NCBI RefSeq assembly: GCF_023806465.1
Contig: NZ_JAMSLS010000002.1
Coordinates: 620,001-684,000 of the forward strand
DNA: 64,000 bases
Direction: 5' to 3'
Source: Thermomicrobium sp. CFH 73360
Lineage (GTDB): Bacteria > Chloroflexota > Chloroflexia > Thermomicrobiales > Thermomicrobiaceae
The translations under genes were made by a program, and so were the position numbers. The notes beneath the pieces are model-generated. The model was not told where the DNA came from, ran no database searches, and was given only the letters and a program-made list of their open reading frames with translations. Of this stretch, positions 12,586-29,911 are shown piece by piece (the first letter of the stretch is position 1; each line of letters starts with the position of its first letter).

Positions 12586-13715
12586 GTGTGGGCTGGGAGC
12601 TCACTGAAGCGCACGTAGAAGCGCTGGCCATTGGCGCTGGTATCTTGGGCACCGGTGGCGGCGGAAACCCCTACTACGGCAAGCTCTATGTCCGCAGACT
12701 GCTGCGCGAGAGACGACGCGTTTGCATCGTCGCACCGGAAGAGGTACCAGACGACGCGCTTGTTGTCTCGGTCGGGGGGATGGGTGCACCGACAATCGGG
12801 ATCGAGCGGATCCACCGGGGAGACGAGCCGCTCGCAGCGCTGCGTGCTCTTGAGCAGCACCTTGGACGGAGAGCAACACATCTAGTACCAGGCGAGATCG
12901 GTGGAGCGAACGCGCTTCGCCCCCTTGCCGTTGCCGCGCTCGCTGAACTCCCGGTGATCGATGGAGACGGCATGGGGCGAGCTTTTCCGGAGCTCCAGAT
13001 GGACACCTTTGCAATCTATGGCATCCCGGCCACGCCGGCCGCGCTCGCCGATATCGACCATAACCTTGTTGTCTTTCCACACCTGCGTGACGCAGTGACG
13101 TTAGAGCGGTACGCCCGTGCTGTGACGGTACAGATGGGTGGCGCAGCCGGCTTTGCCTTCCCAGCGATGAGCGGTGCAGCGCTTCGTCGCGTCGTCATTC
13201 CCTATACGATCAGCCTCGCCGTGCAGCTGGGAGAAGCGGTGTTAGCGGCACGCTCGGAACATGCCGACCCGATTGCGGCGGCCCTAGCTGTCACCGGTGG
13301 CTGCCGGCTTTTTCGCGGCAAAGTGATCGACGTGGAGCGCCGGTTGGCGGCAGGCTTTGCGCGGGGAAGCATGCGCATAGAAGGACTCGGCGATGACCGA
13401 GGGAGCGAACTCCAGATTGACTTTCAGAACGAGAACTTGATCGCCCGTCGAGACGGCCAGGTCATCGCCGCGGTACCTGACCTGATCTGCCTCGTTGACC
13501 AGGAAACCGCCGAACCGGTCACGACGGAAGTCGTCCGGTACGGCCTCCGCGTGGCCGTACTCGGCATCCCGGCACCGGCACTGCTCCGGACGCCAGAAGC
13601 ACTAGCAGTTGTCGGGCCTGCTGCCTTTGGGTACGTCGATGTGGAGTACCAACCGCTGCCAGGCATCTATGGAGGAGATCGTCTCGCGGCAGAGCGCGGC
13701 GCGGCAACTCAGTAA
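12582..13715 (+). CDS. DUF917 family protein
   Basis: A 377-aa protein whose start matches DUF917: EALAIGAGILGTGGGGNPYYGKL, then VSVGGMGAPTIGIE and PGEIGGANALRPL. DUF917 proteins are almost always next to hydantoinase/oxoprolinase genes and are believed to be the partner subunit or a related metal-dependent enzyme; the biochemical role is not established. TTG at 12582 overlaps the upstream stop; GTG at 12588 is an alternative start. Its 3' end overlaps the convergent YggT gene by 7 bp. Confidence 0.86.
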   Translation: MSVGWELTEAHVEALAIGAGILGTGGGGNPYYGKLYVRRLLRERRRVCIVAPEEVPDDALVVSVGGMGAPTIGIERIHRGDEPLAALRALEQHLGRRATHLVPGEIGGANALRPLAVAALAELPVIDGDGMGRAFPELQMDTFAIYGIPATPAALADIDHNLVVFPHLRDAVTLERYARAVTVQMGGAAGFAFPAMSGAALRRVVIPYTISLAVQLGEAVLAARSEHADPIAAALAVTGGCRLFRGKVIDVERRLAAGFARGSMRIEGLGDDRGSELQIDFQNENLIARRDGQVIAAVPDLICLVDQETAEPVTTEVVRYGLRVAVLGIPAPALLRTPEALAVVGPAAFGYVDVEYQPLPGIYGGDRLAAERGAATQ

Positions 13716-13963
13716 ACGGCGTTGAGCAACATCATACGCAAAAGATAAATCAAGAGCAGTGCGACCAGCGGCGAGAAATCGATGAATCCTGTTCGCGGCA
13801 TGACGCGCCGGATCGGAGCAATGATTGGTTCGGTAACCTGCACCAGGATCTGCGAAATCGGCCAACGTGCCCCAGGATCAAACCAGGAGAGGATCGCACG
13901 GGCGATGATCGCGATCTGCATCACCCACAGAAAGGTGAGAAGCACGTTCAGCACAAATTCCAC
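13709..13963 (-). CDS. YggT family membrane protein
   Basis: An 84-aa protein with two hydrophobic segments flanking the family motif: LTFLWVMQIAIIARAILSWF, then VTEPIIAPIRRVMP and SPLVALLLIYLLRMML. YggT/YlmG proteins are small integral membrane proteins linked in other bacteria to cell division, envelope organisation or osmotic stress; the role here is inferred from the family only. A good promoter lies immediately upstream (13995-14023). It is a single-gene unit between a convergent gene and a divergent gene. Confidence 0.9.
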   Translation of the reverse strand: MEFVLNVLLTFLWVMQIAIIARAILSWFDPGARWPISQILVQVTEPIIAPIRRVMPRTGFIDFSPLVALLLIYLLRMMLLNAVY

Positions 13964-13994
13964 GGAAGACAGCCTCCAGTTCTGTACTTACAGA

Positions 13995-14023
13995 ATGGTA
14001 TCACCGCCCAGGAAAAGCGTCAA
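13995..14023 (-). promoter_or_regulatory. Promoter of yggT
   Basis: On the minus strand a -35 element TTGACG (14023-14018), a 17-bp spacer and a -10 element TACCAT (14000-13995) stand 31 bp upstream of the yggT ATG. Spacing and hexamers fit a primary sigma factor. Confidence 0.6.
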
Positions 14024-14154
14024 TCGACATGCACACCGGTGCACTGCGGACAGCACGAGCGGGTGTGATGCTTCATTCCGATACCTCGCGTAGAATGGCG
14101 CAGGCCGTGCTGTGGCCGAATAGTCTGATGAGCGGAAAGGAGCGAGAGCGGACG

Positions 14155-15129
14155 ATGAGCAAGGACGTGCTCGTGTTGACCTGGAAATATTTCTCCGCCC
14201 GCGAGGAGATCCAGCGCTTCCTTGCAGAACGCGGGTGCCGTTTCGTCGAGCGGGAGATTCGCTATCCGGTTGATGAAGAACAACTCTGCGAACTCGTCCG
14301 GGACATTGACGGGCTGGTGGTCGGGTTGGAGCCGGTCACTGCGCGCGTTTTGTCCTGTGCGAACCGTCTCAAGGTGATCAGCACCAGCGGCGTCGGCTAC
14401 GACAACATTGACGTCGCGGAAGCGACCCGCCGTGGCATCGTCGTGAGCAACTGTCATGGTGCCAACGAGCACTCGGTCGCCGAACTTGCCTTCGGCCTTA
14501 TGCTGAGCCTTGCCCGGCGCATCCATGGATCCGACCGGGCAATGCGGCAGGGACGCTGGGAACCATACTTTGGAGTCGAGCTCTGGGGCAAGACGCTGGG
14601 CGTCGTTGGACTGGGCCGCACGGGTCGGGCCGTTGCGCTGCTTGGGCGTGGATTTGGGATGCGTGTCCTCGCTCACGACATTGTGTGGGATACGACTTTT
14701 GCCAACGCCCATGAAATCAGCTACGTTCCGCTCGATAAGCTCCTGCGCGAGTCGGACTTCGTCTCGCTCCACGTTCCGCTGACACCCGAGACGCGCTATC
14801 TCATCGACGAACGGGCACTCGCGCTGATGAAGCCGACTGCATTCCTCATCAACCTGGCACGCGGGCCGGTCGTCAAGCAGTCGGCGCTGGTGGAGGCGCT
14901 ACGCCGCGGGCAGATTGCTGGCGCTGGACTGGACGTCTTCGAGGTCGAGCCGATCCGCGACAACCCGTTTATCGAGTTCGAGAATGTCGTCATGACGCCA
15001 CACCTCGGCGGCTCGACCCAGGAAGCGCGCGAGCGCACCCTCTATCTGGCACTGACCAACGTCTGCAACGTGCTCAACGGCCGGCCACCCCATGCACAGG
15101 TGAACCCTGAAGTGCGCCTTGGATGGTGA
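14155..15129 (+). CDS. D-2-hydroxyacid dehydrogenase (phosphoglycerate dehydrogenase-like)
   Basis: A 324-aa NAD-dependent D-isomer 2-hydroxyacid dehydrogenase. The Rossmann motif is GVVGLGRTGRAVALL near residue 148, and the substrate/catalytic set is present as NLARGPVVK (Arg), DVFEVEP (Glu) and TPHLGGST (His). SerA-like features are the N-terminal SGVGYDNIDVAEATRRGI motif, but the ACT regulatory domain is absent. ATG at 14155 follows GAAAGGAG; the frame is open 42 codons further upstream but without family similarity. It overlaps the M42 gene region by a few bases only and is probably cotranscribed with it. Substrate unknown. Confidence 0.88.
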   Translation: MSKDVLVLTWKYFSAREEIQRFLAERGCRFVEREIRYPVDEEQLCELVRDIDGLVVGLEPVTARVLSCANRLKVISTSGVGYDNIDVAEATRRGIVVSNCHGANEHSVAELAFGLMLSLARRIHGSDRAMRQGRWEPYFGVELWGKTLGVVGLGRTGRAVALLGRGFGMRVLAHDIVWDTTFANAHEISYVPLDKLLRESDFVSLHVPLTPETRYLIDERALALMKPTAFLINLARGPVVKQSALVEALRRGQIAGAGLDVFEVEPIRDNPFIEFENVVMTPHLGGSTQEARERTLYLALTNVCNVLNGRPPHAQVNPEVRLGW

Positions 15130-15137
15130 GGAGAACC

Positions 15138-16199
15138 ATGTTGCGCGACGAGCAAAAGGCGTTCCTACTCCGCTTGCTTGAAGCTCCGAGCCCCTCTGGG
15201 TTCGAAGAACCGGCTGCTCGAATCTGGCGGGAGGAAGCAAGTCGATTTGCTGACGAGGTTTGGGTGGACCACAACGGGAACAGCTTCGCCCGCCTGCGCG
15301 GCAGCGGACCGACCGTCCTCATCGAGGGTCACATCGACGAAATCGGCCTCATGGTGACCCACATCGACGAGCAGGGCTTTATTTGGTTCCGTGGGATCGG
15401 TGGCTGGGACGACCAAATCTTGACTGGTCAGCGCGTACGGATCCTCTCCCGACAGGGGCCAGTGTTCGGCGTGATTGGCCGCAAGCCAGCCCATTTGCTG
15501 AGCGAGGAGGAAAAGGGTCGCGCGAGCCGTATCAAGGAACTGTGGATCGACATTGGCGCGCGGGACGGGACTGAGGCTCGCGAACTCGTCCGCATTGGGG
15601 ACCCGATCGTCATCGAGCAGCCTCCGATTGAGCTTCGCAATGGTCGATTGGTCGCCCGTGGCCTGGATAACCGGATGGGAGCGTTTATTGCACTCGAAGT
15701 GCTTCGTGCACTCGCGAGCGAGCGACCGCCGCTGGAGGTCGTGGCGCTTGCCGCAACACAGGAAGAAATTAGTTTTCTTGGTGCTCGCGCAGCGGCATTC
15801 GCAGTGGAACCGACTGTGGCGATCGTGATCGACGTGACGCATGCCACCGATCACCCAGAAGCAGAGAAGCGTGGCGGAGGCGACGTGCGGATTGGCGGCG
15901 GGCCAGTCCTCGACCGCGGCTCAATGGTGCATCCGCACGTCTTCGAACGCCTGCTCGCAGCAGCTGAGGCGGAAGGCATTCCAGTTACGCTCTCGGCAGC
16001 GCCAATTCGCACCGGCACGGACGCCGATGCGATTGCCCCAGCACGTGCGGGCATCCCTTGCGGGCTCGTGTCAGTACCGAACCGCTACATGCACTCGCCG
16101 AACGAGTTGGTGAGCCTGGACGACCTGGACGCTGCAATCCGCCTCATCACCCGCTTCGTGCGCGACCTTGGCCCAGAACCAGACTTCCGGCGCCGCTAA
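15138..16199 (+). CDS. M42 family metallopeptidase (tetrahedral aminopeptidase-like)
   Basis: A 353-aa cocatalytic dinuclear metal aminopeptidase of family M42. Metal and catalytic motifs are visible: GHIDEIGLMV (His ligand), GLDNRMGAF (bridging Asp), ATQEEISFLGAR (catalytic Glu-Glu), IVIDVTHATDHP (Asp ligand) and the C-terminal RYMHSPNE (His ligand). These enzymes form cytosolic 12-subunit tetrahedra that degrade peptides; some homologues are annotated as endoglucanases. I chose ATG at 15138 with GGTGAGGAG upstream over 15123, which would overlap the dehydrogenase stop. The 3' end overlaps the convergent dioxygenase gene by 4 bp. Confidence 0.9.
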   Translation: MLRDEQKAFLLRLLEAPSPSGFEEPAARIWREEASRFADEVWVDHNGNSFARLRGSGPTVLIEGHIDEIGLMVTHIDEQGFIWFRGIGGWDDQILTGQRVRILSRQGPVFGVIGRKPAHLLSEEEKGRASRIKELWIDIGARDGTEARELVRIGDPIVIEQPPIELRNGRLVARGLDNRMGAFIALEVLRALASERPPLEVVALAATQEEISFLGARAAAFAVEPTVAIVIDVTHATDHPEAEKRGGGDVRIGGGPVLDRGSMVHPHVFERLLAAAEAEGIPVTLSAAPIRTGTDADAIAPARAGIPCGLVSVPNRYMHSPNELVSLDDLDAAIRLITRFVRDLGPEPDFRRR

Positions 16200-17092
16200 T
16201 CGGCCTCAAGCGGTGTCCAGAGCTCGAGCTCAAGGTCGTCATAGTCGCGTGTCCGAAAACCTTCCCCGAGTTCACCGCAAAGTCCGCGCTCGACCGGTCG
16301 ACCTGCCCGCTCCAGTCGGTCGAGCGCGGCACTCCAAGCGGAACGGTCAGGAATGACCATCGCAAAACGCACAAGACCACGGCAACCTGGTGGTGCGGGA
16401 TCAGCACGACGGCTGTTCCAGATATTTAGGCCGAGGTGGTGGTGATAGTCACCGGCAGCAACGAAGAGCGCACCGGGATAGGAACGTTGTGTTACCTGGA
16501 AGCCGAGGAGTTCCACGTAGAAGCGTTCCGCAAGGTCCAAGCCAGACACTTGTAAGTGCACATGTCCCACCCGTGCGTCTACAGGCATTGTCTGCCACGG
16601 CTCCGGGCTCGCGTCGAGTTCTCGGAGCAGATCCCGTACATCCAGAGGCTCAGTGACCATCGAGATCGACTCGCGCGTTCCGCGCGGCCAGCGCTCTGGC
16701 GGGCGATCAGCATAGAACTCGAGACCGTTCCCTTCTGGATCAGTAAGGTAGAGCGCCTCACTGACCTGGTGGTCGGAAGCACCAAGGAGCGGCCAGCGGC
16801 GCTCTACCAAGTGGCGGAGCACTCGCGCCAATTCTGTGCGAGTCGGCAAAAGGATCGCCGTATGGTAAAGACCAGGAGCACGCTGCGGTCGAGCAGGCGC
16901 CTCTGGTGTTATCTCGAAGAGAAAATGCGGCTTCGCGGAACCTGGTGGAAGTGCAGCCAAACAGCCGTCCGCTTGTGGGACAAGCTGGTAACCAAGGGTC
17001 TCCCGGTAAAAGAGTCGGATGAGTCGCTCATCAGCAACACGCAGGGTGACGGGACCAAGCTCAAGCGTTGCGGGAAGCATCATGGTGTGCAT
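16196..17092 (-). CDS. VOC-fold ring-cleavage dioxygenase (CatE/glyoxalase-like)
   Basis: A 298-aa protein with two tandem vicinal-oxygen-chelate modules. The first (about 10-125) has LGPVTLRVADERLIRLFYRE, GLYHTAIL (His ligand) and LYLTDPEGNGLEFYADRP. The second (about 165-290) has VGHVHLQVSGLDLAERFYVELLGF, a DYHHHLGLN segment and ends YDDLELELW. This arrangement is that of CatE/YfiE-type catechol-2,3-dioxygenase-like proteins, iron or manganese dependent. Start ATG 17092 with GGAG upstream. Substrate is not deducible; it stands alone on this strand, divergent from the methyltransferase. Confidence 0.85.
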   Translation of the reverse strand: MHTMMLPATLELGPVTLRVADERLIRLFYRETLGYQLVPQADGCLAALPPGSAKPHFLFEITPEAPARPQRAPGLYHTAILLPTRTELARVLRHLVERRWPLLGASDHQVSEALYLTDPEGNGLEFYADRPPERWPRGTRESISMVTEPLDVRDLLRELDASPEPWQTMPVDARVGHVHLQVSGLDLAERFYVELLGFQVTQRSYPGALFVAAGDYHHHLGLNIWNSRRADPAPPGCRGLVRFAMVIPDRSAWSAALDRLERAGRPVERGLCGELGEGFRTRDYDDLELELWTPLEAD

Positions 17093-17197
17093 GGAGAAGG
17101 CTCCTTCCGATGCAAAATCGTCGATGCAAGGATAACAGGCAGGGCTGCACAACTTGCCTGCCACCGTGGACAGTCACTCTGAGGAAGCGAAGGAACA

Positions 17198-18298: not shown

Positions 18299-18532
18299 TC
18301 AATGTCCGTGGCCGGGCCCGTGTACTGGGGCGTCGGTGACTTCGCTCAGGAGCACCGTCTTGTGGGCGAAGTGGCGGTGCATCCAGTCGAGATACTCCCA
18401 CCGATTGCGGACGATCCGTGTCTGCTCTGGATCGGTGACATCTTGGGGAACACGAGTCATCAAGCTCGGATCAACCTCAAAGACGTGCAAATCCTCACGG
18501 CAGAGCACCACGCCTTTGCGAACCCGCTTCAT
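18299..18532 (-). CDS. Hypothetical 77-aa protein with His-rich tail
   Basis: A small soluble protein starting at an ATG that overlaps the stop of the flavoprotein gene (ATGA, 4 bp), so translation is probably coupled. Residues 1-24 (KGVVLCREDLHVFEVDPSL) and the centre (RNRWEYLDWMHRHFAHKTVLL) look like structured sequence. The last residues are HGPGHGH, with three His of a possible metal site in addition to the MHRHFAH cluster. I do not recognise a family. Its position as last gene of the permease/Fe-S/flavoprotein operon suggests an accessory or maturation role for the redox pair. Confidence 0.65.
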   Translation of the reverse strand: MKRVRKGVVLCREDLHVFEVDPSLMTRVPQDVTDPEQTRIVRNRWEYLDWMHRHFAHKTVLLSEVTDAPVHGPGHGH

Positions 18533-20064
18533 GCGCCCACCTCCTCGTCGACGTAGGCAAGATGCAAATAATTCTTGCTGGGATTGAGGATGTTGTTCGG
18601 ATCGAGCAGACGCTTCATTTTCTTCATGAGCTCGAACCCACCCTCATGAAGCTCTACTGGAATGAACTCAGCGTCCCCCTCGCGGCACGCCCCGTGACAA
18701 GCGCTGATTGAGCCTTGATGTTCAAGTGTGGCCCGGGTAATCTCCCGCTTGAGGTTCACCCACGCCTGCCAAGTTTCCTCGTTGAGCGCCTGCTCCCAGA
18801 TCCCGATGTCAATTTCCACGAGATAGTCACCCCAGCCCTTGTAGGGATTGTTGCTGTAGAAGAACATGCCCCAGTTGTCGAAAATCCCGTACTTCTGAAT
18901 ATACCGGTCAGTGATCTCGTGCCACTTTTGCTTGATAGCAGGGAGTTCCGAGTAAATGATCGCGGCGTCCTCGCAGTGCCAGCTCATCGGAACAACCGTT
19001 CCATCTGGTAGGCGACCGTGGAGTGGCGTCGCGTACCGATCGTGTCGTGAGGCCCAGTCACCCGCGGAGAGCTCGTCACCGAGGTATTCGCCTCCGGTCT
19101 CCTTCGCGATCCGGAAGAGCCGGTTCGCTGCCGCACGCACCTCCTCCTCGACGCCGTAGAGCGCTGTGGCAACGACCGCCTTGATCCGATCTGGCAAAGG
19201 AATGTATGCCTCATCGTCACGGCGGAGATAGTCGACCTTGCGCTCATCAAAGAGAATGACGGCGGCCAGTGTGCCCAGCCCAGACGTCGAGAGTGCCCCG
19301 GTACTCCGGTAGGCCTCCTCAAACGACTCATACCCGAAGAACGCGGCAAGTTCGGCTTCCGGCTTCGGGAACAGCTCGAGCGTCGCCTCCGTGACCACGC
19401 CGAGCGTTCCTTGCGTACCAATGAAGAGCTGCTTCAGGTTATAGCCGGTCGAGGCCTTGCGAACCTTGGGCGCGCCACCTCCGTCACTCAGGCGCACAAT
19501 CTCTCCAGTTGGGAGTACCACCTGCAAGCTGATCACGAGATCGCGCGTGTGCCCATAGCGCGAGCCGATGAGCGACCAACCACTCGTCCCGATTCGCCCG
19601 CCGATGATGGAGACCGGATAGGATGCAGGATCGTCCGGATAGAAGACCCCGTAGGGTGCCAGGTACTCGTTCAGCTTGAGCATATTGAGGCCAGGCTGAA
19701 CCGTGACCGTGCGATTCACCAGATCCAGCTCGATAATCTTGTTCATCTTCTTAATATCGAGCAGGATTCCCTTGTGAAGTGGCACTGCCCCATCGGCAAG
19801 ACCGGTCCCACCAGCACGCGGGACGACCGGCACACGGAACTGATTTGCGATACGCAGGATTGCCGAAACCTCTTCCGCGGTCTCCGGCAGCACAACCACA
19901 TCGGGCATGTGCTCGGCGAACCGATGCACCGGGAACGGCGCCGGCACACGCGTGCGAGCGATCCGCGCTCCGAGATCGGTGCGCACTTTCTCTTTCCCGA
20001 GTGCCTGCTCGAGTGCCGTGATGACTTGATCGGTAACCGGATTCGGAACCGTCAGCGTCGCCAT
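18529..20064 (-). CDS. FAD-linked oxidase, GlcD/D-lactate dehydrogenase-like
   Basis: A 511-aa flavoprotein of the vanillyl-alcohol-oxidase/GlcD class. The FAD-binding PCMH domain (about 50-235) has PDVVVLPETAEEVSAILRIA, PVVPRAGGTGLADGAVP and GTQGTLGVVTEATLELFPKP; the C-terminal FAD-oxidase domain ends with MKKMKRLLDPNNILNPSKNY. These enzymes oxidise 2-hydroxyacids or related alcohols and pass electrons to a membrane pool, often through a GlcF/HdrD-type Fe-S partner, and such a gene lies 15 bp upstream. Downstream comes the 77-aa protein. The substrate is unknown. The central insert CHGACREGDAEFIP contains two Cys. Confidence 0.9.
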   Translation of the reverse strand: MATLTVPNPVTDQVITALEQALGKEKVRTDLGARIARTRVPAPFPVHRFAEHMPDVVVLPETAEEVSAILRIANQFRVPVVPRAGGTGLADGAVPLHKGILLDIKKMNKIIELDLVNRTVTVQPGLNMLKLNEYLAPYGVFYPDDPASYPVSIIGGRIGTSGWSLIGSRYGHTRDLVISLQVVLPTGEIVRLSDGGGAPKVRKASTGYNLKQLFIGTQGTLGVVTEATLELFPKPEAELAAFFGYESFEEAYRSTGALSTSGLGTLAAVILFDERKVDYLRRDDEAYIPLPDRIKAVVATALYGVEEEVRAAANRLFRIAKETGGEYLGDELSAGDWASRHDRYATPLHGRLPDGTVVPMSWHCEDAAIIYSELPAIKQKWHEITDRYIQKYGIFDNWGMFFYSNNPYKGWGDYLVEIDIGIWEQALNEETWQAWVNLKREITRATLEHQGSISACHGACREGDAEFIPVELHEGGFELMKKMKRLLDPNNILNPSKNYLHLAYVDEEVGA

Positions 20065-20079
20065 CGTTCCCTGCCCTTC

Positions 20080-21348
20080 TCAGTCGTTCAACCCCATCGC
20101 CTCGGCGACCATTTCAAGGAGATCGAGCACCTCAAGCTGCTGTTCACGACCGGATGAGGTCAGCGGACGCTCTGACCACGGGCAGGCACTGACGAGAGCC
20201 TGGACGTTCAACTCCTTGGCCCGCGAGATACGGAGGTCAGCAATCTTTTTCGCCAGATCCGGATGCTCGACGGCAAAGCCACCACCCGCACCGGAGCAGT
20301 AAGCCCACTGAGTCACGTGGTCGACGTCGATGAAGGTCAATCCCGGGATGGCGCGGAGAATCTTGCGCGGAGCCTCCCACTTCCCCAACCGCTTGTTCAT
20401 CCGGCAGGGATCGTGGTAGGTGACCGTCTTCTCAATCGGCTTGACAAACTGGATCTTCCCCTGATCCAGGAGCTCGGCGACAAAGTCGATCATAAACACG
20501 AACTCCGGGAGTTCCTCTTGCGGGAACAGCTGCGGGTACATGTCAACGAAACTGATGTAGTCGTGAGGATCGAGAACAAAGACCCGCTTGGCCCCGGCCT
20601 TCTTCCAGTCGGCAACGTTGTGCTCGGCAAGGTAGCGCGCGTGATCGGGATATCCCATCTCGAGCGATGGACCACCACAGCACCACTGCTCATACATGAG
20701 GCCAAAGGGGACACCGGCAGCATGGAGGATCTTGGCGACCGCCTTCGGCAGGCTCGTCCGGTAGTAGGCGGCTTCGCAGTCGACGAACAGGATATTCTCT
20801 CCACCCCGGGGAATTTCAAAGGGCAGGTCCTTCGCCCAGTCGGCAACACGATTGGGGTCGACCGGTTGAATATTCTCGTAATCGAGGACTGGCTCGTTCT
20901 TTCCCACCATCGTCGCCTCGACCCAGCGCTGCCAGCGCGGCCAGAGACCGAGGCCGGCCTTATTCGCGGCAGCACGCATGTCCTGGACGAGCTTCACCGT
21001 GCGCGTTCGGTTACGGTAGAAATCGCCGACGAAGAGGGTGTTGGGACACCGGAGCTCGCAGCCACCACAGAGCGTGCAGTAGCTGTAGTTCTCGGCCACA
21101 TCCTCCAGATGCGCCGCTCCCTTTTCGATCGCCACCACATTGGCGTGAAAGGCTGTCGGAGTGTGTTGTTCGTTCCGCGTGACCTGATAGACTGGACAGA
21201 CCTCCCGACAGAACTTGTGCCCAGAGCTGAAGCAGCCATAGGCCTGGAGCAGATGCCCTCGGACGAACTCCTGCTCGATCTCCCGAACCCCATCGTGTCC
21301 GTTTGCCGCAACCATTTCCGGCGGCGTCGTGCGGATCTCGTCGCTCAT
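20080..21348 (-). CDS. Fe-S protein with CCG domains, HdrD/GlcF-like, altered first cluster
   Basis: A 422-aa (Fe-S)-binding protein. The second ferredoxin motif is canonical (C91, C94, C97, C101-Pro). The first has only C39, C47 and C51-Pro, with Ser41 and His44 where two cluster Cys normally sit. Two CCG-type domains follow: EQWCCGGPSLEMGYPDHA, and HDPCRMNKRLGKWE paired with YCSGAGGGF (Ser in place of the usual second Cys). The family shuttles electrons between a flavoprotein and quinone or disulfide acceptors. ATG at 21348 follows GGAGGGAGGT. It sits between the permease and the flavoprotein genes, so it is the likely electron acceptor of the latter. Confidence 0.88.
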   Translation of the reverse strand: MSDEIRTTPPEMVAANGHDGVREIEQEFVRGHLLQAYGCFSSGHKFCREVCPVYQVTRNEQHTPTAFHANVVAIEKGAAHLEDVAENYSYCTLCGGCELRCPNTLFVGDFYRNRTRTVKLVQDMRAAANKAGLGLWPRWQRWVEATMVGKNEPVLDYENIQPVDPNRVADWAKDLPFEIPRGGENILFVDCEAAYYRTSLPKAVAKILHAAGVPFGLMYEQWCCGGPSLEMGYPDHARYLAEHNVADWKKAGAKRVFVLDPHDYISFVDMYPQLFPQEELPEFVFMIDFVAELLDQGKIQFVKPIEKTVTYHDPCRMNKRLGKWEAPRKILRAIPGLTFIDVDHVTQWAYCSGAGGGFAVEHPDLAKKIADLRISRAKELNVQALVSACPWSERPLTSSGREQQLEVLDLLEMVAEAMGLND

Positions 21349-21448
21349 GTGACCTCCCTCCATCCTGGCTCACATCCCACAGACCGAGTTCCTCAGTGCG
21401 CTTGCGACATTCTCACCTCCACCGGAACCGCACCACCAGCCGACCGCT

Positions 21449-22864
21449 TCAGTCTCCCTTCTGCGCTGCCACCAACTCCCGCCGGGAGACCGTCAGACGC
21501 CGGGTCAAGAAGGTGAGCGCAAGATAGACAGCAGCAGTCAGGAAGAATGTCGGGATGCCAGCCGTAATGTAGGTGAACAACGGTCCAGCACGGTCAGTCG
21601 CCGGGTCATAGGTCCAGAAGTAGAAGATGCCGCCCAAGACAATCGCGGCGTATGCTTCCCAGTTAAAGCCGGCCACATACTGGTAGCGGCCCGCATGCTG
21701 ACGGTACAGGTCACGCAACGAGATGTGGAAGCGCTGGACGAAAACATAGTCGGCAACCATTACACCACCGAAAGCGGCCATGATAAAGGAGATATAGGCA
21801 AGGAACTTCGTGTAGCTGTCATACATGGTCGGGGTAAGCATGAGCAACGCCGCAGGAACGGTCGTCAGGAGGGCCCAGAACCACTTCCAGCGTGGGAAGA
21901 GCGTCTTGATGCTAAGGCTCTGTGAGTAGATGAGCACCGTCGCGGAGGTCAGGTTGGCCAGAATCAGCATGAACAGGCCAAAGAGACCAAAGAGTGGACC
22001 ACCTGCCTCAATCATCCACTCAGTTGGTTCATACGTTCCGACAAGCAACGCTGTCAGTGCGCCAAGGATCGCGGCGACGTTGAGGAGAACGCCCCATCCC
22101 AAGTAGGTTCCAATCAGTGCCGTCCGCTCATCTTTGGCCAAACGATTCCACTGGCCAATGTACGGGAGCCAGGAGAAACCAAGACCGACATTCCACTCAA
22201 TCGCCGAGGCGAGTCCGCGCACTGAACTGTCATACGGCGCTGGTGGCTGAGCGTTCCAGACTGTGGAGACTCCTTTATCGACGAAAATGTAGAAGATCAG
22301 CCCAATGATGATCAGGACCATCGCCGGCACGCCGACTCGGATGAAGAGCCGGATCGCGATCGGTCCCTGCAATGCAAGCCACCAGGCGACCGCGAACGCA
22401 GCGAGGGCGAACATCGGTGCACCAACCGTTCGGGAGGCCAGCCATTCCGGCCCTCCGAAGGCTGCAACGACGCGGATCGCCGACTCGCCGAGCATGAAAC
22501 AGGCAATGGTGATCCACCCAAGGTTCAAGATAGCGAAGATGATGAGGAAGAGATTACTGCCGCGTGGGCCCAGGATAGCTCGTGCACCAATGAAGGTATC
22601 AACACCATACCGGGCGTAGAGGATCGCCAAGACACTAATCAAGAAGACCGGAATCGCGTTCCCAAAGAGGATCGCGGCAATTGCCGGTCCTGCAGGGAGC
22701 ACAGACCCCGTGTAGCCACCAACGAGGAAACTCCAGGCAGCGATTCCAAAGCCGACCTGAACTAGAAGGAAGTCTAACAAACCAAACTGCCGTTCCCCTC
22801 GGAGAACCGGCAGGATACCAAAATAGACCTCCCGCTGAACTGCCTGCTCTCGCCCTTCAGCCAT
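21449..22864 (-). CDS. NCS1 family nucleobase/cation symporter-type permease
   Basis: A 471-aa membrane protein with about 12 transmembrane helices, of the purine-cytosine permease/allantoin permease superfamily. N-terminal GLLDFLLVQVGFGIAAWSFLVGG and the FIGARAILGPRGS motif are typical of NCS1 (TM2-3 region). The start ATG 22864 is preceded by AGGAGGTGGGCGAG. NCS1 members import cytosine, purines, allantoin, hydantoins or related N-heterocycles with a cation. Its neighbours, a redox pair, molybdenum hydroxylases and a CodA-type deaminase, support such a substrate. A 59-aa membrane protein is encoded 25 bp upstream. Confidence 0.9.
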   Translation of the reverse strand: MAEGREQAVQREVYFGILPVLRGERQFGLLDFLLVQVGFGIAAWSFLVGGYTGSVLPAGPAIAAILFGNAIPVFLISVLAILYARYGVDTFIGARAILGPRGSNLFLIIFAILNLGWITIACFMLGESAIRVVAAFGGPEWLASRTVGAPMFALAAFAVAWWLALQGPIAIRLFIRVGVPAMVLIIIGLIFYIFVDKGVSTVWNAQPPAPYDSSVRGLASAIEWNVGLGFSWLPYIGQWNRLAKDERTALIGTYLGWGVLLNVAAILGALTALLVGTYEPTEWMIEAGGPLFGLFGLFMLILANLTSATVLIYSQSLSIKTLFPRWKWFWALLTTVPAALLMLTPTMYDSYTKFLAYISFIMAAFGGVMVADYVFVQRFHISLRDLYRQHAGRYQYVAGFNWEAYAAIVLGGIFYFWTYDPATDRAGPLFTYITAGIPTFFLTAAVYLALTFLTRRLTVSRRELVAAQKGD

Positions 22865-22889
22865 GTCTCGCCCACCTCCTCCTGCCGTC

Positions 22890-23069
22890 TTAGCGATGTA
22901 ACAAGAGGTTCAGTACCAGCGCCGCGAAGAGGAACAGCACCACTGCCGTCACCACCCACATGTAGACCCAGTCGAGGTTTGAGAAGGGCTCAGGACGCTC
23001 GCCCTCTTCGATGCGCCGAATCCGCTCATCCAACTCTGCTTGCAGTTGGGGCTCCAGTAGCTGCTCCAT
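22890..23069 (-). CDS. Small single-pass membrane protein
   Basis: A 59-aa protein starting at ATG 23069, which has a textbook AAGGAGGT site 5 bp upstream; the frame is open further upstream but that portion has no support. It has an acidic/charged N-terminal half (LQAELDERIRRIEEGERPEP) and one C-terminal transmembrane helix (WVVTAVVLFLFAALVLNLLL). First gene of the permease operon. By analogy with small subunits of secondary transporters it could assist the NCS1 permease, but this is inference; no family is recognised. Confidence 0.75.
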   Translation of the reverse strand: MEQLLEPQLQAELDERIRRIEEGERPEPFSNLDWVYMWVVTAVVLFLFAALVLNLLLHR

Positions 23070-23273
23070 AGCCACCTCCTTTATGCCGAAAATGACCACC
23101 TGAGTCCCCATTAGTAAGGTAAACACGCGCGACCCGCAGTACAAGATTTCCGAATACAATTCCCATGATGCATTTTTGTAGTCAGACACAACGAGCGGGA
23201 CATTGCACAGCGCGTCGCGAACAACTCCCAGCTAAAGTTCCTCCGAGACAACAGCGTCGACATGACAGTTCAG

Positions 23274-23304
23274 TCCTGACAATGAGGCAAAGATCCGCTA
23301 TACT
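23274..23304 (+). promoter_or_regulatory. Promoter of the first molybdenum hydroxylase gene
   Basis: CTGACA followed by a 17-bp spacer and TATACT, about 45 bp before the ATG at 23348. The -35 matches five of six and the -10 four to five of six consensus positions. Coordinates are accurate to a base or two. Confidence 0.6.
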
Positions 23305-23347
23305 GGGTGCGAAGCAGGATCGTCAGCGTCAGGGAAGGGGTTAGGCG

Positions 23348-25660
23348 ATGGTATTGAGTCGAATGGTCGGGGCTCGCGTCCGCCGGAAGGAAGACCCTCG
23401 CCTTATCACAGGAACGTCTCAGTATGTCGATGACATGACGCTTCCTGGCATGCTCTATGCGGCCTTCGTCCGCAGCACGTACCCGCATGCGGCCATCAAG
23501 AAGGTGGACGCCTCCGCGGCACTGGCCATGCCCGGTGTCGTCGGTGTGATCACTGCTGAGCAGCTCGGCCACTGGCTGAAGGGCACGGTACAGCTTGGTG
23601 GAGGGGAAGGAGAGGGAGAAGCCACACCGCAGGAGGCTCCATCGGGGCCGCCACAGCACGAACTCCTGGCCGTCGATCGTGTCCGCTACGTTGGTCAGCC
23701 GATCGCAGTCGTTTTGGCGACAGAACGCTATCGTGCCTATGACGCAGCAGCCGCTGTCCAAGTCGAATACGAGCCGCTCCCAGCGGTTGTCGACCCCGAG
23801 GAAGCGATGAAGGACGGTGCGCCGCAGATCCATGCGACGCTCCAGAACAACATCGCGATGCACACCAGCCATCAACACGGCGATGTCGACAAAGCGTTCG
23901 CCGAAGCAGACATCGTCATCAAGCAGCGCTTCTACCAGCAGCGGCTCGTTTCCGTTCCCATGGAGCCCCGCGCTGTCGCTGCAGCACCTGACCCGTTGAC
24001 GCGTGGTGTCACCGTCTGGTCATCCACACAAGCTCCTCACAACAACCGGAACACACTGGCTCAGGCATTGGGGCTCAGTCACGGCCAAGTCCGCGTCATT
24101 GCACCGGAAGTCGGTGGCGGCTTTGGTGCCAAGATCGGAGCCTATCCAGAGGACATCATCCTTGCGGCGATTGCGCTCCATTTGCATCGCCCCGTCAAGT
24201 GGTATGAAACACGCTCGGAACACTTCATCGCCACCAACCAAGGACGTGGGCAGGTGGCCTACTATGAGCTCGCCGCGACGAAAGAGGGGCGGATCCTCGG
24301 TTTGCGCCTCAAGGTCATCCAGGATCTGGGCGGCTACCCGAAGGTCATGCTCTTGGCACCACTCACCGCAATGATGTCGGTCGGTGTCTATGACATCCCC
24401 AATCTCGCGATTGAGACCTATAGTGTTTGCACGAATACTACGCCAATTGGGGCTTATCGTGGTGCCGGTCGACCCGAAGCCGCCTACTATATCGAACGGA
24501 TGATGGATCTCCTCGCCCGCAAGCTCGGGAAGGACCCGGCCGAGGTACGCCGGATCAATTACATCCCGCCAGACAAGTTCCCCTATCAGACACCCGCCGG
24601 CGCTCGCTACGATTCCGCCGAGTACGAAAAGTCGTTGAACAAGGCGCTGGAGATCTCGCGCTACCACGAGTGGCGCCAAAAGCAGCAGGAGCTCCGCCAG
24701 CAGGGTCGCTATATCGGCATCGGGCTGGCCACCTACACGGAAATCTGCGGCTTTGGTCCCTACGAAAGCGCTTCGATCCGGGTCGAACCAACCGGAGCCG
24801 TTATCGCCTATACGGGCACGTCCCCACACGGACAGGGGCTGGAGACCGCACTCGCTCAGATCATCGCGGACGAAATCGGCGCCGACTTTGACCAGATCGT
24901 CGTGCTGCACGGGGATACTCAGAGCGTCCCGGAAGGCGTTGGCACGTTGGGCAGCCGGAGTTTGGCCGTCGGTGGCGGCGCCATGCTGATGGCCGCGCAG
25001 CGTATCCGCGAGAAGGCGATTCGTATCGCCGCACACTTGCTTGAGGCGGCGGTTGAGGACGTGGAGTACGCCGACGGTAAGTATCGGGTCAAGGGCGCAC
25101 CGGACCGCGCGGTCACCCTCGCCCAGATCGCCCAGGCTGCCTACAGCCCGGGGCTCCCAGCTGACATCGAGCCCGGACTCGTCGTGACCGACTACTATGC
25201 GCCACCAGGAACGCTGTTCCCCTTCGGCACCCACGTGGCGGTCGTGGAAGTCTTCCCCGAAACAGGCGAGGTCAAGCTCCTCGAGTACTACTCGGTCGAC
25301 GACTGTGGCCCCCGCATCAACCCCCTCCTCGTCGAAGGCCAGGTCCACGGTGGCCTCGCCCAGGGTATTGCCCAAGCCCTCTGGGAGGAGGTCCGCTACG
25401 ACGACTCCGGCCAACTCCTCACCGGTACCCTCATGGACTACGCCATTCCGAAGGCGCACCTGCTACCGAGCTTTGTCACTGACGAGACGGTCACACCGAG
25501 CCCAATCAATCCGCTGGGGGCCAAAGGGATCGGCGAGGCAGCAACGATCGGGGCTACTCCAACCATCGCCAACGCGGTGATGGACGCCTTAGCGCCCTTC
25601 GGGATTGAGCACCTCGATATCCCGTTGACTCCAGAAAAGATCTGGCGCGCTCTGCAGTAG
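23348..25660 (+). CDS. Molybdenum hydroxylase large subunit, CoxL/XdhA family (copy 1)
   Basis: A 770-aa molybdopterin-cytosine-dinucleotide-type catalytic subunit of the xanthine dehydrogenase/CO dehydrogenase family. N-terminal a/b hammerhead domain (GARVRRKEDPRLITGTSQYVDD), then Mo-binding domains with APEVGGGFGAKIGAYPED, the active-site loop AYRGAGRPEAAYYIERMMD, GTSPHGQGLETALAQI and LGAKGIGEAATIG (catalytic Glu). The AYRGAGR loop is that of 'form II' enzymes, not the AYxCSFR loop of true CO dehydrogenase, so an aldehyde or N-heterocycle substrate is more likely. ATG 23348 has GGAAGGGG upstream. No CoxS (2Fe-2S) or CoxM (FAD) gene is adjacent. It is followed by a terminator and a paralogue. 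Confidence 0.93.
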   Translation: MVLSRMVGARVRRKEDPRLITGTSQYVDDMTLPGMLYAAFVRSTYPHAAIKKVDASAALAMPGVVGVITAEQLGHWLKGTVQLGGGEGEGEATPQEAPSGPPQHELLAVDRVRYVGQPIAVVLATERYRAYDAAAAVQVEYEPLPAVVDPEEAMKDGAPQIHATLQNNIAMHTSHQHGDVDKAFAEADIVIKQRFYQQRLVSVPMEPRAVAAAPDPLTRGVTVWSSTQAPHNNRNTLAQALGLSHGQVRVIAPEVGGGFGAKIGAYPEDIILAAIALHLHRPVKWYETRSEHFIATNQGRGQVAYYELAATKEGRILGLRLKVIQDLGGYPKVMLLAPLTAMMSVGVYDIPNLAIETYSVCTNTTPIGAYRGAGRPEAAYYIERMMDLLARKLGKDPAEVRRINYIPPDKFPYQTPAGARYDSAEYEKSLNKALEISRYHEWRQKQQELRQQGRYIGIGLATYTEICGFGPYESASIRVEPTGAVIAYTGTSPHGQGLETALAQIIADEIGADFDQIVVLHGDTQSVPEGVGTLGSRSLAVGGGAMLMAAQRIREKAIRIAAHLLEAAVEDVEYADGKYRVKGAPDRAVTLAQIAQAAYSPGLPADIEPGLVVTDYYAPPGTLFPFGTHVAVVEVFPETGEVKLLEYYSVDDCGPRINPLLVEGQVHGGLAQGIAQALWEEVRYDDSGQLLTGTLMDYAIPKAHLLPSFVTDETVTPSPINPLGAKGIGEAATIGATPTIANAVMDALAPFGIEHLDIPLTPEKIWRALQ
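25217..25449 (+). repeat. 233-bp tract identical to 27980-28212 (CoxL copy 1)
   Basis: By direct comparison every base of 25217-25449 equals 27980-28212 (constant offset 2763), including synonymous positions, while flanking codons differ. It encodes FPFGTHVAVVEVFPETGEVK through LTGTLMDYAIP. A second identical tract of 95 bp is at 25559-25653 / 28322-28416. Likely recent gene conversion. Confidence 0.9.
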
Positions 25661-26110
25661 GCCAGGGCAAGCGTCTAAAGGCGATATCAGGTGAACTTGA
25701 GTGGCCCGGGGCAATGCTCCGGGCCACCTGTCTTCAACGCTCCTCGTTTTGAGCGCCGTATCGTTTCAAAAATGAGCACGGCGCGCCTTCCAACCGGATT
25801 GCGTGACCAAGGTATCCCGCGCATGAGTAGTCAGCCTACCTGTGCCGGGAGACTTGTGTTTCAAGGAAGTACAGTCCCTTCTGCTGCAGAGCACCGGGAT
25901 CTGCGCAATTGCCAGCGAAACTGTTGTAGACCTGGAGGGCAATACGATTTTCATGACTCACGTGAGTCCGCCGCGGCTTTAGTATTTAGCCCCTAACCAG
26001 ATACCAGTCATGTGATGACCCTTGACTTTTCAGGCGATTCGTCTCAGGCTAGAGTTGTGTACTTGGCATGGGAGCAATCGACGGGAGCCGTCGAGGAAGG
26101 GAGTACAGCA
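25661..26110. other. Intergenic region between the two CoxL paralogues
   Basis: 450 bp without a gene. It carries the terminator of copy 1 (25701-25727), a 7-bp inverted repeat with an 18-nt loop (25753-25759 / 25778-25784) and presumably the promoter of copy 2; TTTTCA-17-TAGAGT at 26027-26055 is a weak candidate. It is more AT-rich than the flanking genes. Confidence 0.4.
25701..25727 (+). terminator. Terminator after CoxL copy 1
   Basis: Perfect 9-bp stem (GTGGCCCGG / CCGGGCCAC) with a 9-nt loop, 40 bp after the stop codon, followed by a pyrimidine-rich TGTCTTCAACGCTCCTCGTTTT. Confidence 0.65.
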
Positions 26111-28441
26111 ATGGTGATCAGTCACTATGTCGGCGCCCGGGTACGGCGGAAGGAGGATCCCCGTCTCATTACGGGAACGTCTCAATATGTGGATGACATC
26201 AAGCTTCCCGGAATGTTGCACGTCGCTTTTGTCCGCAGTAGCTACCCGCATGCTCGCATCCGGAGCATCGACAGTTCAGCCGCCCGAGCCATGCCAGGCG
26301 TCGTCGGTATCTATACCGGGCGCGATTTGGCCGCGTCGCTAAAAGGGAAACCAGAGCTCATGCCTGGTGAAGCACCGCACCCCGAGGAACAGAAGCCCGA
26401 AGGAATTCCGGTGCCACCAGAAGAGCCCATCGCCGTCGACCGCACACTTTTCGTTGGACAGCCAATCGCCGTTGTGGTCGCGACGTCCCCAGCGATCGCC
26501 CGTGACGCTGCCGAGGCGGTCGTGGTGGACTATGAGCCGTTGCCGGCAGTTACCGACCCCGAAGCGGCCATGCAGGAGGGAGCACCACTGCTCTATCCCG
26601 ATATCCCCAACAATATCGGTGAACGTTGGGAGCGTGTCGAAGGTGACGTGGACGGTGCCTTTGCACGAGCCGATGTGGTCGTCAGGCAGCGGTTCCGCCA
26701 GCAACGGCTGGCTGGGATTCCCATGGAGCCGCGGGCGATCGTTGCCGCACCGGATCCTCTGACGCAAGGAGTGATCGTTTGGAGCTCGACCCAGGCACCA
26801 CACTGGAACCGTAACGCCCTCGCCGCAGCGCTTGGCCTTTCCCACGGCCAGGTCCGAATCATCGCTCCGGAGGTCGGTGGTGGCTTCGGAGTGAAAATCG
26901 GAGCGTACCAGGAGGACTTTATCCTTGCTGCCCTCGCCTTACAGCTGCATCGGCCTGTCAAGTGGGTAGAGACTCGTTCTGAGCACCTCATGGCCACTAA
27001 CCATGGGCGCGACCAGGTCGTCGACTACGAACTTGCAGCCACCGGTGAGGGTCGGGTCCTGGCACTGCGGGCGCGTATCGTGCAGGACCTCGGCGCCTAT
27101 CCGCGCGGGCTGTATCTCCCTTCCACAACCGGTCTTATGGCCTGCGGCTGTTATGACATACCTGCAGTCGACATCAAAGCCTATGGTGTGTACACGAATA
27201 CGATGGCAGTTGGTGCCTACCGTGGTGCTGGCCGGCCCGAGGCCGCTTACTACATCGAACGGATGATGGATCTCCTGGCCCGCAAGCTCGGGAAGGACCC
27301 GGCCGAGGTACGCCGGATCAATTTCATCCCGCCGGACAAGTTCCCGTACACCACGGCGGCCGGCGAGAAATACGACACTGGCGATTATGAAAAGCCGCTG
27401 GCCAAAGCTCTCGAAATCTCGCGCTACCAGGAGTGGCGTCAGAAGCAGCAGGAACTCCGCCAGCAGGGTCGCTATATCGGCATCGGGCTAGCCAGTTACG
27501 TTGAGATTTGCGGCTTCGGTCCCTACGAAAGCGCCGTCGTCCGAGTTGAGCCGAGTGGAGCGGTCACCGTCTACACCGGCACGTCTCCGCATGGCCAGGG
27601 ACTGGAGACTGCTCTTGCACAGCTGGTCGCTGAGAACCTCGGTGCGGACTTTGATCAGATCACTGTTTTGCACGGCGACACACAAAGCGTCCCCGAAGGA
27701 CACGGGACCATGGGCAGCCGGAGTCTTGTCGTTGGCGGCAGTGCCGTTCTCATGGCAATCGACCGCGTGAAAGAAAAGGCGACGCAGATCGCGGCGCACC
27801 TGCTCGAGGCAGCAGCGGAGGACATTGAGTTCGCAGATGGCAAGTGGCGCGTCAAGGGAGCGCCGGACCGCGCGGTCACTCTCGCCCAGATCGCCCAGGC
27901 CGCCTACGGCCCCAACCTTCCGCAGGGTATGGAACCGGGACTTGTCGCCACTGATTTCTTTGCCCCGCCTGATGAGGTCTTCCCCTTCGGCACCCACGTG
28001 GCGGTCGTGGAAGTCTTCCCCGAAACAGGCGAGGTCAAGCTCCTCGAGTACTACTCGGTCGACGACTGTGGCCCCCGCATCAACCCCCTCCTCGTCGAAG
28101 GCCAGGTCCACGGTGGCCTCGCCCAGGGTATTGCCCAAGCCCTCTGGGAGGAGGTCCGCTACGACGACTCCGGCCAACTCCTCACCGGTACCCTCATGGA
28201 CTACGCCATTCCCAAAGCAGCAATGCTCCCCTCGTTCACCACTGATCAGACCGAGACTCCAACCCCGCTCAACCCGCTTGGCGCCAAAGGAATCGGTGAG
28301 GCAGCAACGATCGGCTCAACCCCAACCATCGCCAACGCGGTGATGGACGCCTTAGCGCCCTTCGGGATTGAGCACCTCGATATCCCGTTGACTCCAGAAA
28401 AGATCTGGCGCGCTCTCCAGGAGGCCAAGGTCGCTTCCTGA
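26111..28441 (+). CDS. Molybdenum hydroxylase large subunit, CoxL/XdhA family (copy 2)
   Basis: A 776-aa paralogue of the preceding catalytic subunit with the same domain order: GARVRRKEDPRLITGTSQYVDD at the N-terminus, EVGGGFGVKIGAYQED, the form II loop AYRGAGRPEAAYYIERMMD and LGAKGIGEAATIG with the catalytic Glu. I start it at ATG 26111 (GGAAGGGAGT upstream), where similarity to copy 1 begins; the frame is open 33 codons earlier without support. It differs from copy 1 through most of its length, including the 'PEGIPVPPEEPIAVDR' linker, yet has stretches identical at the DNA level (27980-28212 and 28322-28416). It probably oxidises a related but different substrate; no small or medium subunit is adjacent. 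Confidence 0.93.
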   Translation: MVISHYVGARVRRKEDPRLITGTSQYVDDIKLPGMLHVAFVRSSYPHARIRSIDSSAARAMPGVVGIYTGRDLAASLKGKPELMPGEAPHPEEQKPEGIPVPPEEPIAVDRTLFVGQPIAVVVATSPAIARDAAEAVVVDYEPLPAVTDPEAAMQEGAPLLYPDIPNNIGERWERVEGDVDGAFARADVVVRQRFRQQRLAGIPMEPRAIVAAPDPLTQGVIVWSSTQAPHWNRNALAAALGLSHGQVRIIAPEVGGGFGVKIGAYQEDFILAALALQLHRPVKWVETRSEHLMATNHGRDQVVDYELAATGEGRVLALRARIVQDLGAYPRGLYLPSTTGLMACGCYDIPAVDIKAYGVYTNTMAVGAYRGAGRPEAAYYIERMMDLLARKLGKDPAEVRRINFIPPDKFPYTTAAGEKYDTGDYEKPLAKALEISRYQEWRQKQQELRQQGRYIGIGLASYVEICGFGPYESAVVRVEPSGAVTVYTGTSPHGQGLETALAQLVAENLGADFDQITVLHGDTQSVPEGHGTMGSRSLVVGGSAVLMAIDRVKEKATQIAAHLLEAAAEDIEFADGKWRVKGAPDRAVTLAQIAQAAYGPNLPQGMEPGLVATDFFAPPDEVFPFGTHVAVVEVFPETGEVKLLEYYSVDDCGPRINPLLVEGQVHGGLAQGIAQALWEEVRYDDSGQLLTGTLMDYAIPKAAMLPSFTTDQTETPTPLNPLGAKGIGEAATIGSTPTIANAVMDALAPFGIEHLDIPLTPEKIWRALQEAKVAS
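27980..28212 (+). repeat. 233-bp tract identical to 25217-25449 (CoxL copy 2)
   Basis: Partner of the identical tract in copy 1, same orientation. Directly repeated identical segments of this length can also act as substrates for deletion of the DNA between them. Confidence 0.9.
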
Positions 28442-28458
28442 ACCGGGGCGGGAAGGGG

Positions 28459-28496
28459 AACCGGGTGGTGCCTCAACACGACGGCACCACCCGGTT
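28459..28496 (+). terminator. Strong terminator hairpin between CoxL copy 2 and codA-like gene
   Basis: Perfect 14-bp stem (28459-28472 / 28483-28496) with a 10-nt loop, 17 bp after the CoxL copy 2 stop. The leftward gene ends at 28610, so it may serve both convergent units. Only short T-runs follow. Confidence 0.65.
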
Positions 28497-28609
28497 CATT
28501 GTCCTCGGTGCTGAGGGGATTCTGCCCTTGTCGGGCGCTCTGTAGGCGCAGGCTTTCGGCACGCGAGACTCTGCTGAGGGTAGACGGCCACAACCCGAAA
28601 CACCATCAA

Positions 28610-29911
28610 TCATCCACCGAGCAAGAGCCCTTCGCCTGGCCGCTCATAGCGAATCATGACAAAATCCTCGCCGCGCCACACCTCCACCCGTGGTGCTGTT
28701 GCACGACTCACTACGCGCCCGTCCTTCACACACCAGAGTGCTGGCGAGAGCATGCGCAGCGCATCGCGGTCGCTTGCGGCGTCGAAGACCACGAAGTTGG
28801 CCGGTTTCCCGATCTCAATGCCGTAGCGATCAAGAATTCCAAGCGCTTTGGCAGCGTTCGTCGTTATCAGATCCCAGACGAGCGGAATCTCGTCGTAGCC
28901 AGAGAGCTGCGCCATATGCAGCCCAAGCCACGCTGCATGGAGCATGTTGCCTGTTCCCAGTGGATACCAGGGATCCATCACCGAATCGTGCCCGAAGGCG
29001 ACGTTGATTCCAAACGCAAGGAGCTCCTTCACACGCGTCATTCCGCGGCGCTTGGGATAGGTATCAAACCGTCCTTGGAGGATGGAATTGTCTGGTGGAT
29101 TCGCGATGATGTTCAGCTCAGCCCGCTTGAGCCAGCCAAACAGCTTAAAGGCATAGGCGTTGTTGTATGATCCCATCGCGGTGGTATGGCTGGCTACCAC
29201 CCGACCCTGCAGTCCGCGCCGGATCGTCTCGGCAGCCATGACCTCGACAAAGCGAGATTGGTCATCGTCTGTCTCATCACAGTGTGCGTCCAATGGACGA
29301 TCGTAGCGCTCAGCAAGCTCGAAGGCGATCCGCAGTGATTCCACTCCCATCTCTCGCGTGGTCTCATAGTGCGGGATGGCGCCGACCACATCGCAACCCA
29401 TCCGCAGGGCTTCTTCGAGGAGTTCCGCACCCCGTGGATAGGACAGGATCCCTTCCTGCGGAAAGGCAACAAGCTGAAGGTCGACGAGGTGGCGCATCTC
29501 CTCACGTACCTCGAGTAGGGCACGCAGACCGACGAAGTTCGGATCGCAGACGTCGACATGACTACGGATCACGAGGGCACCCTGGCTGGCATACCACTCG
29601 ATCGCTCTTTTGGCCCGCTCCTTCACCGCTTCGACGGTCAGCTGCGGCTTGGTCTGTGCCCAACGCTGGATCCCCTCGAGCAGCGTCCCAGTTTCGTTGT
29701 GGCCCGCCAGACCTTCGGTGAGCGCAGCATCAAGGTGGCAGTGCGGTTCGATCAACGGCGGTGAGAGAAGCCGTCCTGCAGCGTCAATTGTCTCGGTCGC
29801 CTCTCCAGCCAGCTCCGCCTCGATGGCAACGATTCGTCCCTCTGTGACACCGATATCAACCAGCCGACCATCACGGAGCCGTGCCCGGCGGACAATCAGG
29901 TCATACGTCAT
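28610..29911 (-). CDS. Cytosine deaminase-type amidohydrolase
   Basis: A 433-aa amidohydrolase close to CodA. Metal ligands: IEPHCHLDAAL (H57, H59), SHVDVCD, AHCDETDDDQSR (His, Glu), SHTTAMGSYN and GHDSVMDPWYPLGTGNML with the catalytic Asp. In E. coli CodA the last motif is nearly the same, so deamination of cytosine or a related ring (isoguanine, creatinine-like) is likely. ATG 29911 follows AAAGGAGACGAG; the 13 codons upstream are excluded. It is convergent with the molybdenum hydroxylase genes and 5 kb from the NCS1 permease, which suits a nucleobase salvage or degradation context. Confidence 0.9.
   Translation of the reverse strand: MTYDLIVRRARLRDGRLVDIGVTEGRIVAIEAELAGEATETIDAAGRLLSPPLIEPHCHLDAALTEGLAGHNETGTLLEGIQRWAQTKPQLTVEAVKERAKRAIEWYASQGALVIRSHVDVCDPNFVGLRALLEVREEMRHLVDLQLVAFPQEGILSYPRGAELLEEALRMGCDVVGAIPHYETTREMGVESLRIAFELAERYDRPLDAHCDETDDDQSRFVEVMAAETIRRGLQGRVVASHTTAMGSYNNAYAFKLFGWLKRAELNIIANPPDNSILQGRFDTYPKRRGMTRVKELLAFGINVAFGHDSVMDPWYPLGTGNMLHAAWLGLHMAQLSGYDEIPLVWDLITTNAAKALGILDRYGIEIGKPANFVVFDAASDRDALRMLSPALWCVKDGRVVSRATAPRVEVWRGEDFVMIRYERPGEGLLLGG

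Follow-up and report, generated by a model that had tools for sequence, protein, structure and literature searches.

Two adjacent units in a Thermomicrobium locus: stand-alone CoxL-like molybdenum hydroxylase subunits, and a permease with an iron-sulfur/flavin module

In this study, we report the analysis of a locus of Thermomicrobium sp. CFH 73360, located within a 64,000-nucleotide stretch of contig NZ_JAMSLS010000002.1 (the window). Two genes encoding CoxL-like large subunits of molybdenum hydroxylases, CoxL1 and CoxL2, are found there in divergent orientation to the genes of an NCS1-family permease, an iron-sulfur (Fe-S) protein, a flavin adenine dinucleotide (FAD) protein and two small proteins of 59 and 77 amino acids (aa), and a CodA-type deaminase gene follows CoxL2. 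We consider it very probable that the locus consists of two separable units lying side by side and not of a single system. The first unit would comprise CoxL1 and CoxL2, tandem copies from an old stand-alone clade of Chloroflexota, with intact catalytic residues and no dedicated CoxS or CoxM. The second would combine the permease and a small membrane peptide with a dehydrogenase module, encoded after them, of three subunits (the Fe-S, FAD and 77-aa proteins). All the genes listed in an earlier sequence-only reading of this DNA (the CoxL pair, flavoprotein, Fe-S protein, NCS1 permease, two small proteins and CodA-type deaminase) are present, and the reading frames of all of them are intact (Table 1).

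Co-occurrence of the two units

The sequence-only reading had proposed a single system for the uptake and oxidation of an N-heterocycle, in which the GlcD-like FAD protein and the HdrD-like Fe-S protein replaced CoxS and CoxM. Co-occurrence of the divergent halves, on which that proposal depended, breaks down in two Thermomicrobium genomes (G119 and G122, both 99% complete), which carry both CoxL orthologues and lack the NCS1/Fe-S pair, as well as in other genera of the class, in which the permease/Fe-S/FAD half was absent near the CoxL orthologues. Within the class, the NCS1 permease is confined to Thermomicrobium. Conversely, neither CoxL nor CoxS was found in the neighbourhood of any of 56 well-flanked loci of the Fe-S/FAD/77-aa module. 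Neither the replacement of CoxS and CoxM by the pair nor the single uptake and oxidation system is supported by these data, and the N-heterocycle had been deduced solely from the family names NCS1 and CodA.

The alignment of G119 with the window showed that 18873-23260 (4.4 kb) is deleted. A relic of the region of the FAD and 77-aa genes remains, with 85% nucleotide identity, and the CoxL1, CoxL2 and CodA proteins are retained at about 96% identity. Since the deletion ends 87 bp short of the start of CoxL1, the weak promoter-like site upstream of this gene is kept. Another genome of the genus, G124, has the Fe-S/FAD pair and CoxL1, with no CoxL2 there.

Some observations weigh against the separation of the two units. 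In the strain studied and in G124 the divergent promoter region is common to both, and in G120 and G123 their ends adjoin, so that regulation may still be shared within Thermomicrobium. In addition, the losses in G119 and G122 mean that the pair is dispensable in those genomes, and are no proof that the proteins never interact where they are present together.

CoxL1 and CoxL2 belong to a stand-alone clade

The catalytic Glu and Gln and the molybdenum cofactor motifs (TQAPH, GGGFG, AYRGAGR and KGxGE) are present in both CoxL1 and CoxL2. Their domains, AYRGAGR loop and GE motif are common to form II CoxL and the large subunits of aerobic molybdenum hydroxylases, and their best solved relatives are the large chains of carbon monoxide (CO) dehydrogenase (8uem, 1ffu). 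Their scores against NF041018 (glyceraldehyde dehydrogenase alpha) were 781.6 and 761.8, just below the cut-off of 790. Unlike form I CO dehydrogenase, both carry AYRGAGR in place of the AYxCSFR loop, and for this reason CO is not expected to be their substrate (PMC13203968, PMC6794299). CoxL proteins bearing AYRGAGR are classified as form II, whose role is unclear (PMC13203968, PMC6794299). The conserved stand-alone clade described below is also a warning that counts of CoxL-like genes overstate CO oxidation in Chloroflexota.

The two proteins differ from form II CoxL systems in that CoxS and CoxM are not encoded in cis, as the sequence-only reading had observed, and this proved to be a property of the whole clade. 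The genome-wide search which that reading had suggested revealed nine MoCoBD_1, five Fer2_2 (CoxS) and five FAD_binding_5 (CoxM) genes. All five CoxS and all five CoxM sit near five other CoxL genes, and none was found within 4 kb of CoxL1, CoxL2, C1:221102 or C34:96870; the genome has, then, four unpaired CoxL-type genes and not two. One complete CoxS/CoxM-linked CoxL operon lies on contig C36 (L016:6012-16002). The N-termini of its neighbours seem to resemble FdrA, DUF1116 and carbamate kinase, perhaps for allantoin breakdown.

Twenty loci encoding relatives of CoxL1 or CoxL2 (54-97% identity) were collected from the genus, the family, the class and further classes of the phylum. Neither CoxS nor CoxM was found on any of these loci, a few of whose contigs are short. 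When 56 CoxL proteins were placed in a tree, 24 of them, all stand-alone and from Chloroflexota, formed one group (support 100/98), next to a group of 16 proteins, every one of them accompanied by both CoxS and CoxM. The stand-alone or linked label changed five times on this tree, versus 18.4 times in shuffles. A wider group of 30 contained one member near CoxS/CoxM, in G380, in which the CoxL gene follows immediately on a complete S-L-M operon. The duplication that gave rise to CoxL1 and CoxL2 predates the divergence of the sampled members of the genus, and another tandem pair, in G114, is perhaps of independent origin (support 88/54).

No constant neighbour gene of the stand-alone CoxL could be recognized. 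The neighbours vary among genera, except for moeA or CoxD/CoxE-like genes in some: in G097 the CoxL gene adjoins those of a CoxD-like ATPase and CoxE, and in G006 and G008 it adjoins moeA, which suggests that these proteins mature as molybdoenzymes. No paper dealing with Chloroflexota CoxL that lacks CoxS/CoxM, or with the Fe-S/FAD/77-aa module and its function, was found in the open-access literature, outside of which most subscription journals lie. Two studies of Thermomicrobium roseum treated the complete form I operon (PMC2615216, PMC6776052).

A second, distant stand-alone CoxL clade was also observed. It includes the own gene L020:7358-9631 (C34:96870) and its relatives L236-L240, from genomes that are complete or nearly so (G006, G065, G066, G114 and G125), with identities of 49-73% among themselves and about 34% to the CoxL of the window. 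The fetched stretches of this clade, too, carry neither CoxS nor CoxM. In addition, a plasmid of Rubrobacter indicoceani (L227:4977-7343) carries a CoxL gene without CoxS/CoxM directly behind 5-oxoprolinase/biotin-carboxyltransferase genes.

Electron acceptor of the stand-alone CoxL

In the characterised enzymes of this family, iron-sulfur and usually also flavin partners carry the electrons off molybdenum. A conserved clade encoded alone, even in one genome devoid of such partner genes, raises a question that can be tested, namely whether a catalytic subunit turns over by itself or with a foreign partner. For CoxL1 and CoxL2, maturation to molybdopterin proteins and the oxidation of some small organic compound, possibly an aldehyde, seem most likely; the electrons would pass to CoxS and CoxM supplied in trans or to some other acceptor.

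We give an even chance to the first of these routes, in which the stand-alone CoxL is an alternative large subunit of an ordinary heterotrimer and CoxS and CoxM are supplied from complete operons elsewhere. The five CoxS/CoxM sets of the own genome could serve in this way, a CoxS gene was found in nearly all stand-alone-CoxL genomes of the phylum sample, and the arrangement in G380 also speaks for it. Furthermore, 133 of the 150 positions invariant in 18 CoxS/CoxM-linked CoxL are also invariant in 25 stand-alone sequences, with a single fixed difference, and the core of the stand-alone proteins is therefore under the same constraint as that of the linked ones. Against this reading, the only CoxL-type gene of G024, a metagenome-assembled genome (MAG) 97% complete, is the stand-alone one; neither a CoxS nor a CoxM scored above the cut-offs in this genome, and a Fer2_2 search to an E-value of 1 returned noise only. 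Mis-binning of this gene is unlikely, since it is 80.6% identical to the copy in another member of its genus. As the MAG consists of 460 contigs, the case is suggestive and no proof. It must also be considered that the complete genome G065 has a single CoxS, placed with its own CoxL.

That the stand-alone CoxL works without any CoxS/CoxM, either with another redox partner or in another reaction on the molybdenum cofactor, seems to us possible but rather unlikely. The gene content of G024 speaks for it, as does the stand-alone state of 24/24 members of the clade and its recurrence in the second clade. On the contrary, the alignment of the 25 stand-alone sequences showed no new conserved set of Cys or His for a cluster or haem, the fragmentation of G024 must be taken into account, and we know of no characterised family member that does without [2Fe-2S] subunits or domains. 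We are doubtful, to a similar degree, that a phylum-wide clade of catalytic subunits of the xanthine oxidase family in Chloroflexota functions with no [2Fe-2S] or FAD subunit of that family, with a molybdenum centre reoxidised by a new partner or engaged in a different reaction.

An electron link from CoxL1/CoxL2, acting on an N-heterocycle imported by the NCS1 permease, to the GlcD-like/HdrD-like pair is very improbable: the halves are adjacent and divergent in four Thermomicrobium genomes and each is without something that a redox chain needs, but the co-occurrence data reject the link, as G119, G122 and the other genera carry the CoxL genes without the other half, and in none of the other lineages sampled does the module occur with CoxL (0/56 loci).

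The Fe-S/FAD/77-aa module

As regards the unit formed by the permease and the module, the latter was searched for in one genome per species (84,980 species), which yielded 80 loci, mostly of Actinomycetota. The FAD gene lies directly 3' of the Fe-S gene wherever the contig permits, and the FAD gene is in turn immediately followed by a homologue of the 77-aa protein in at least 64 of the 77 loci outside the genus. Because both genes regularly trail the Fe-S gene, the three are considered subunits of one module, conserved in about 80 genomes and forming a separate and widespread enzyme. The Fe-S gene has its closest relatives in Thermomicrobium (93-96% identity), other genomes of which share this locus.

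The module shares with glycolate oxidase GlcDEF and with CCG-domain proteins of the HdrD/TfrB/GlpC type the joint encoding of an FAD protein and a CCG-domain Fe-S protein. It differs from them in the lack of GlcE, the additional 77-aa subunit and the altered cluster motifs, and its scores were far from the curated cut-offs (GlcD, 237.9 vs. 567.9; GlcF, 51.6 vs. 333; TfrB, 117.6 vs. 385). Glycolate oxidase was ruled out, since the GlcD and GlcF cut-offs were missed and the unit has no GlcE-type gene. The first cluster motif of the Fe-S subunit is C-x4-H-x2-C-x3-CP, and the CCG motifs are incomplete (C196 and C228-C229 without CxxC; C320, C356-S and C394-PWS). All are invariant in 81 sequences; the two peptide patterns of the scan touch the cluster-motif regions, and the sample leans to those motifs. 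A true HdrD-type CCG protein was also ruled out, as two complete C-x-CCG-x-CxxC motifs are lacking. It must be noted that an invariant His replaces a cluster Cys in 81/81 sequences (C44, H49, C52, C56).

The 77-aa protein ranges from 77 to 108 aa in the module loci and carries the conserved motifs E-V-D-P-x-L-M and W-M-H-x-H-[FW]-A. It had no Pfam match, two of its homologues had no NCBIfam match, and its predicted fold (mean predicted local distance difference test score, 69; predicted template modelling score, 0.32) had no match in the PDB.

The neighbours most often found in the 56 well-flanked loci were a Mer-like luciferase-family protein (53), a GntR-FCD regulator (41), a cache-domain protein (40), an APC permease (39) and an aldehyde dehydrogenase (28). 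In Thermomicrobium, the Mer-like protein of the actinobacterial loci has only distant paralogues (26-34%). The actinobacterial context, with an aminobutyraldehyde-type aldehyde dehydrogenase, a class III aminotransferase and an amino-acid permease, hints at an amine as the substrate of the module. Judging from the superfamilies, the module most likely would oxidise an imported small compound at the FAD, and the Fe-S subunit would relay the electrons to the quinone pool.

Permease, 59-aa peptide and CodA-type deaminase

The permease has the Transp_cyt_pur domain of NCS1 permeases (84.3 bits vs. a gathering score of 23.5). Its scores were below the cut-off for all the named NCBIfam models (TIGR00800, 96.2 vs. 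353.1), and it is accompanied by the 59-aa membrane peptide, which is probably an accessory of the permease. Its closest plasmid relative (44.5%) is encoded on pPM400 of Bacillus badius (L076:13724-17947), where it is preceded by a similar short peptide with one transmembrane segment and lies near a gene resembling a haem-dependent oxidative N-demethylase.

The deaminase exceeded the curated cut-offs of cytosine deaminase CodA (PRK09230 and PRK07572; 540.5 vs. 483 and 513.2 vs. 438). It is unlike CodA systems in that it shares no operon with a CodB-type permease and is encoded beyond the CoxL genes. As a fixed partner of CoxL it was discarded: it accompanies CoxL only in the genus and is absent near CoxL orthologues elsewhere, so that the link is one of genus-level synteny only.

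Features of the locus

The annotation of the locus is provided in Table 1. The hairpin 3' of CoxL1 was read directly from the sequence and was not listed by the pattern scan; it suggests that CoxL1 and CoxL2 are probably transcribed separately. For CoxL2, the ATG at 26111 suits the alignment better than the start of the open reading frame at 26012.

Table 1. Genes and other features of the locus, with positions in the window.
Feature	Position	Strand	Evidence or remark
77-aa third subunit of the Fe-S/FAD module	18300..18532	-	Stop of the FAD gene overlapped by ATGA
GlcD-like FAD protein (VAO/PCMH superfamily), 511 aa	18529..20064	-	FAD_binding_4 (E 3.8e-39), FAD-oxidase_C
HdrD/GlcF-like Fe-S protein, 427 aa, altered ligand motifs	20080..21363	-	CCG domains, 4Fe-4S dicluster
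NCS1-family permease, 471 aa	21449..22864	-	Transp_cyt_pur (E 1.1e-23)
59-aa peptide, one hydrophobic segment	22890..23069	-	GGAGGTGG ahead of ATG
Promoter-like site before CoxL1, CTGACA-17-TATACT	23276..23304	+	Weak: 5 such sites vs. 3.4 expected
CoxL1, CoxL-like molybdenum hydroxylase large subunit, 770 aa	23348..25660	+	MoCoBD_1, MoCoBD_2, a/b hammerhead domains
Hairpin 3' of CoxL1, 12-bp stem, GTGGCCCGGGGC-AAT-GCTCCGGGCCAC, no T run	25701..25727	+	
CoxL2, tandem paralogue of CoxL1 (75% identity)	26111..28441	+	MoCoBD_1, MoCoBD_2, a/b hammerhead domains
CodA-type deaminase	28610..29911	-	Exceeds two NCBIfam cut-offs

The locus is adjoined at 11041-17164 of the window by hydantoinase/oxoprolinase-type and S-Me-THD-type (DUF917) genes, a 2-hydroxyacid dehydrogenase, an M42 peptidase and a glyoxalase-family gene, all of them syntenic within the genus.

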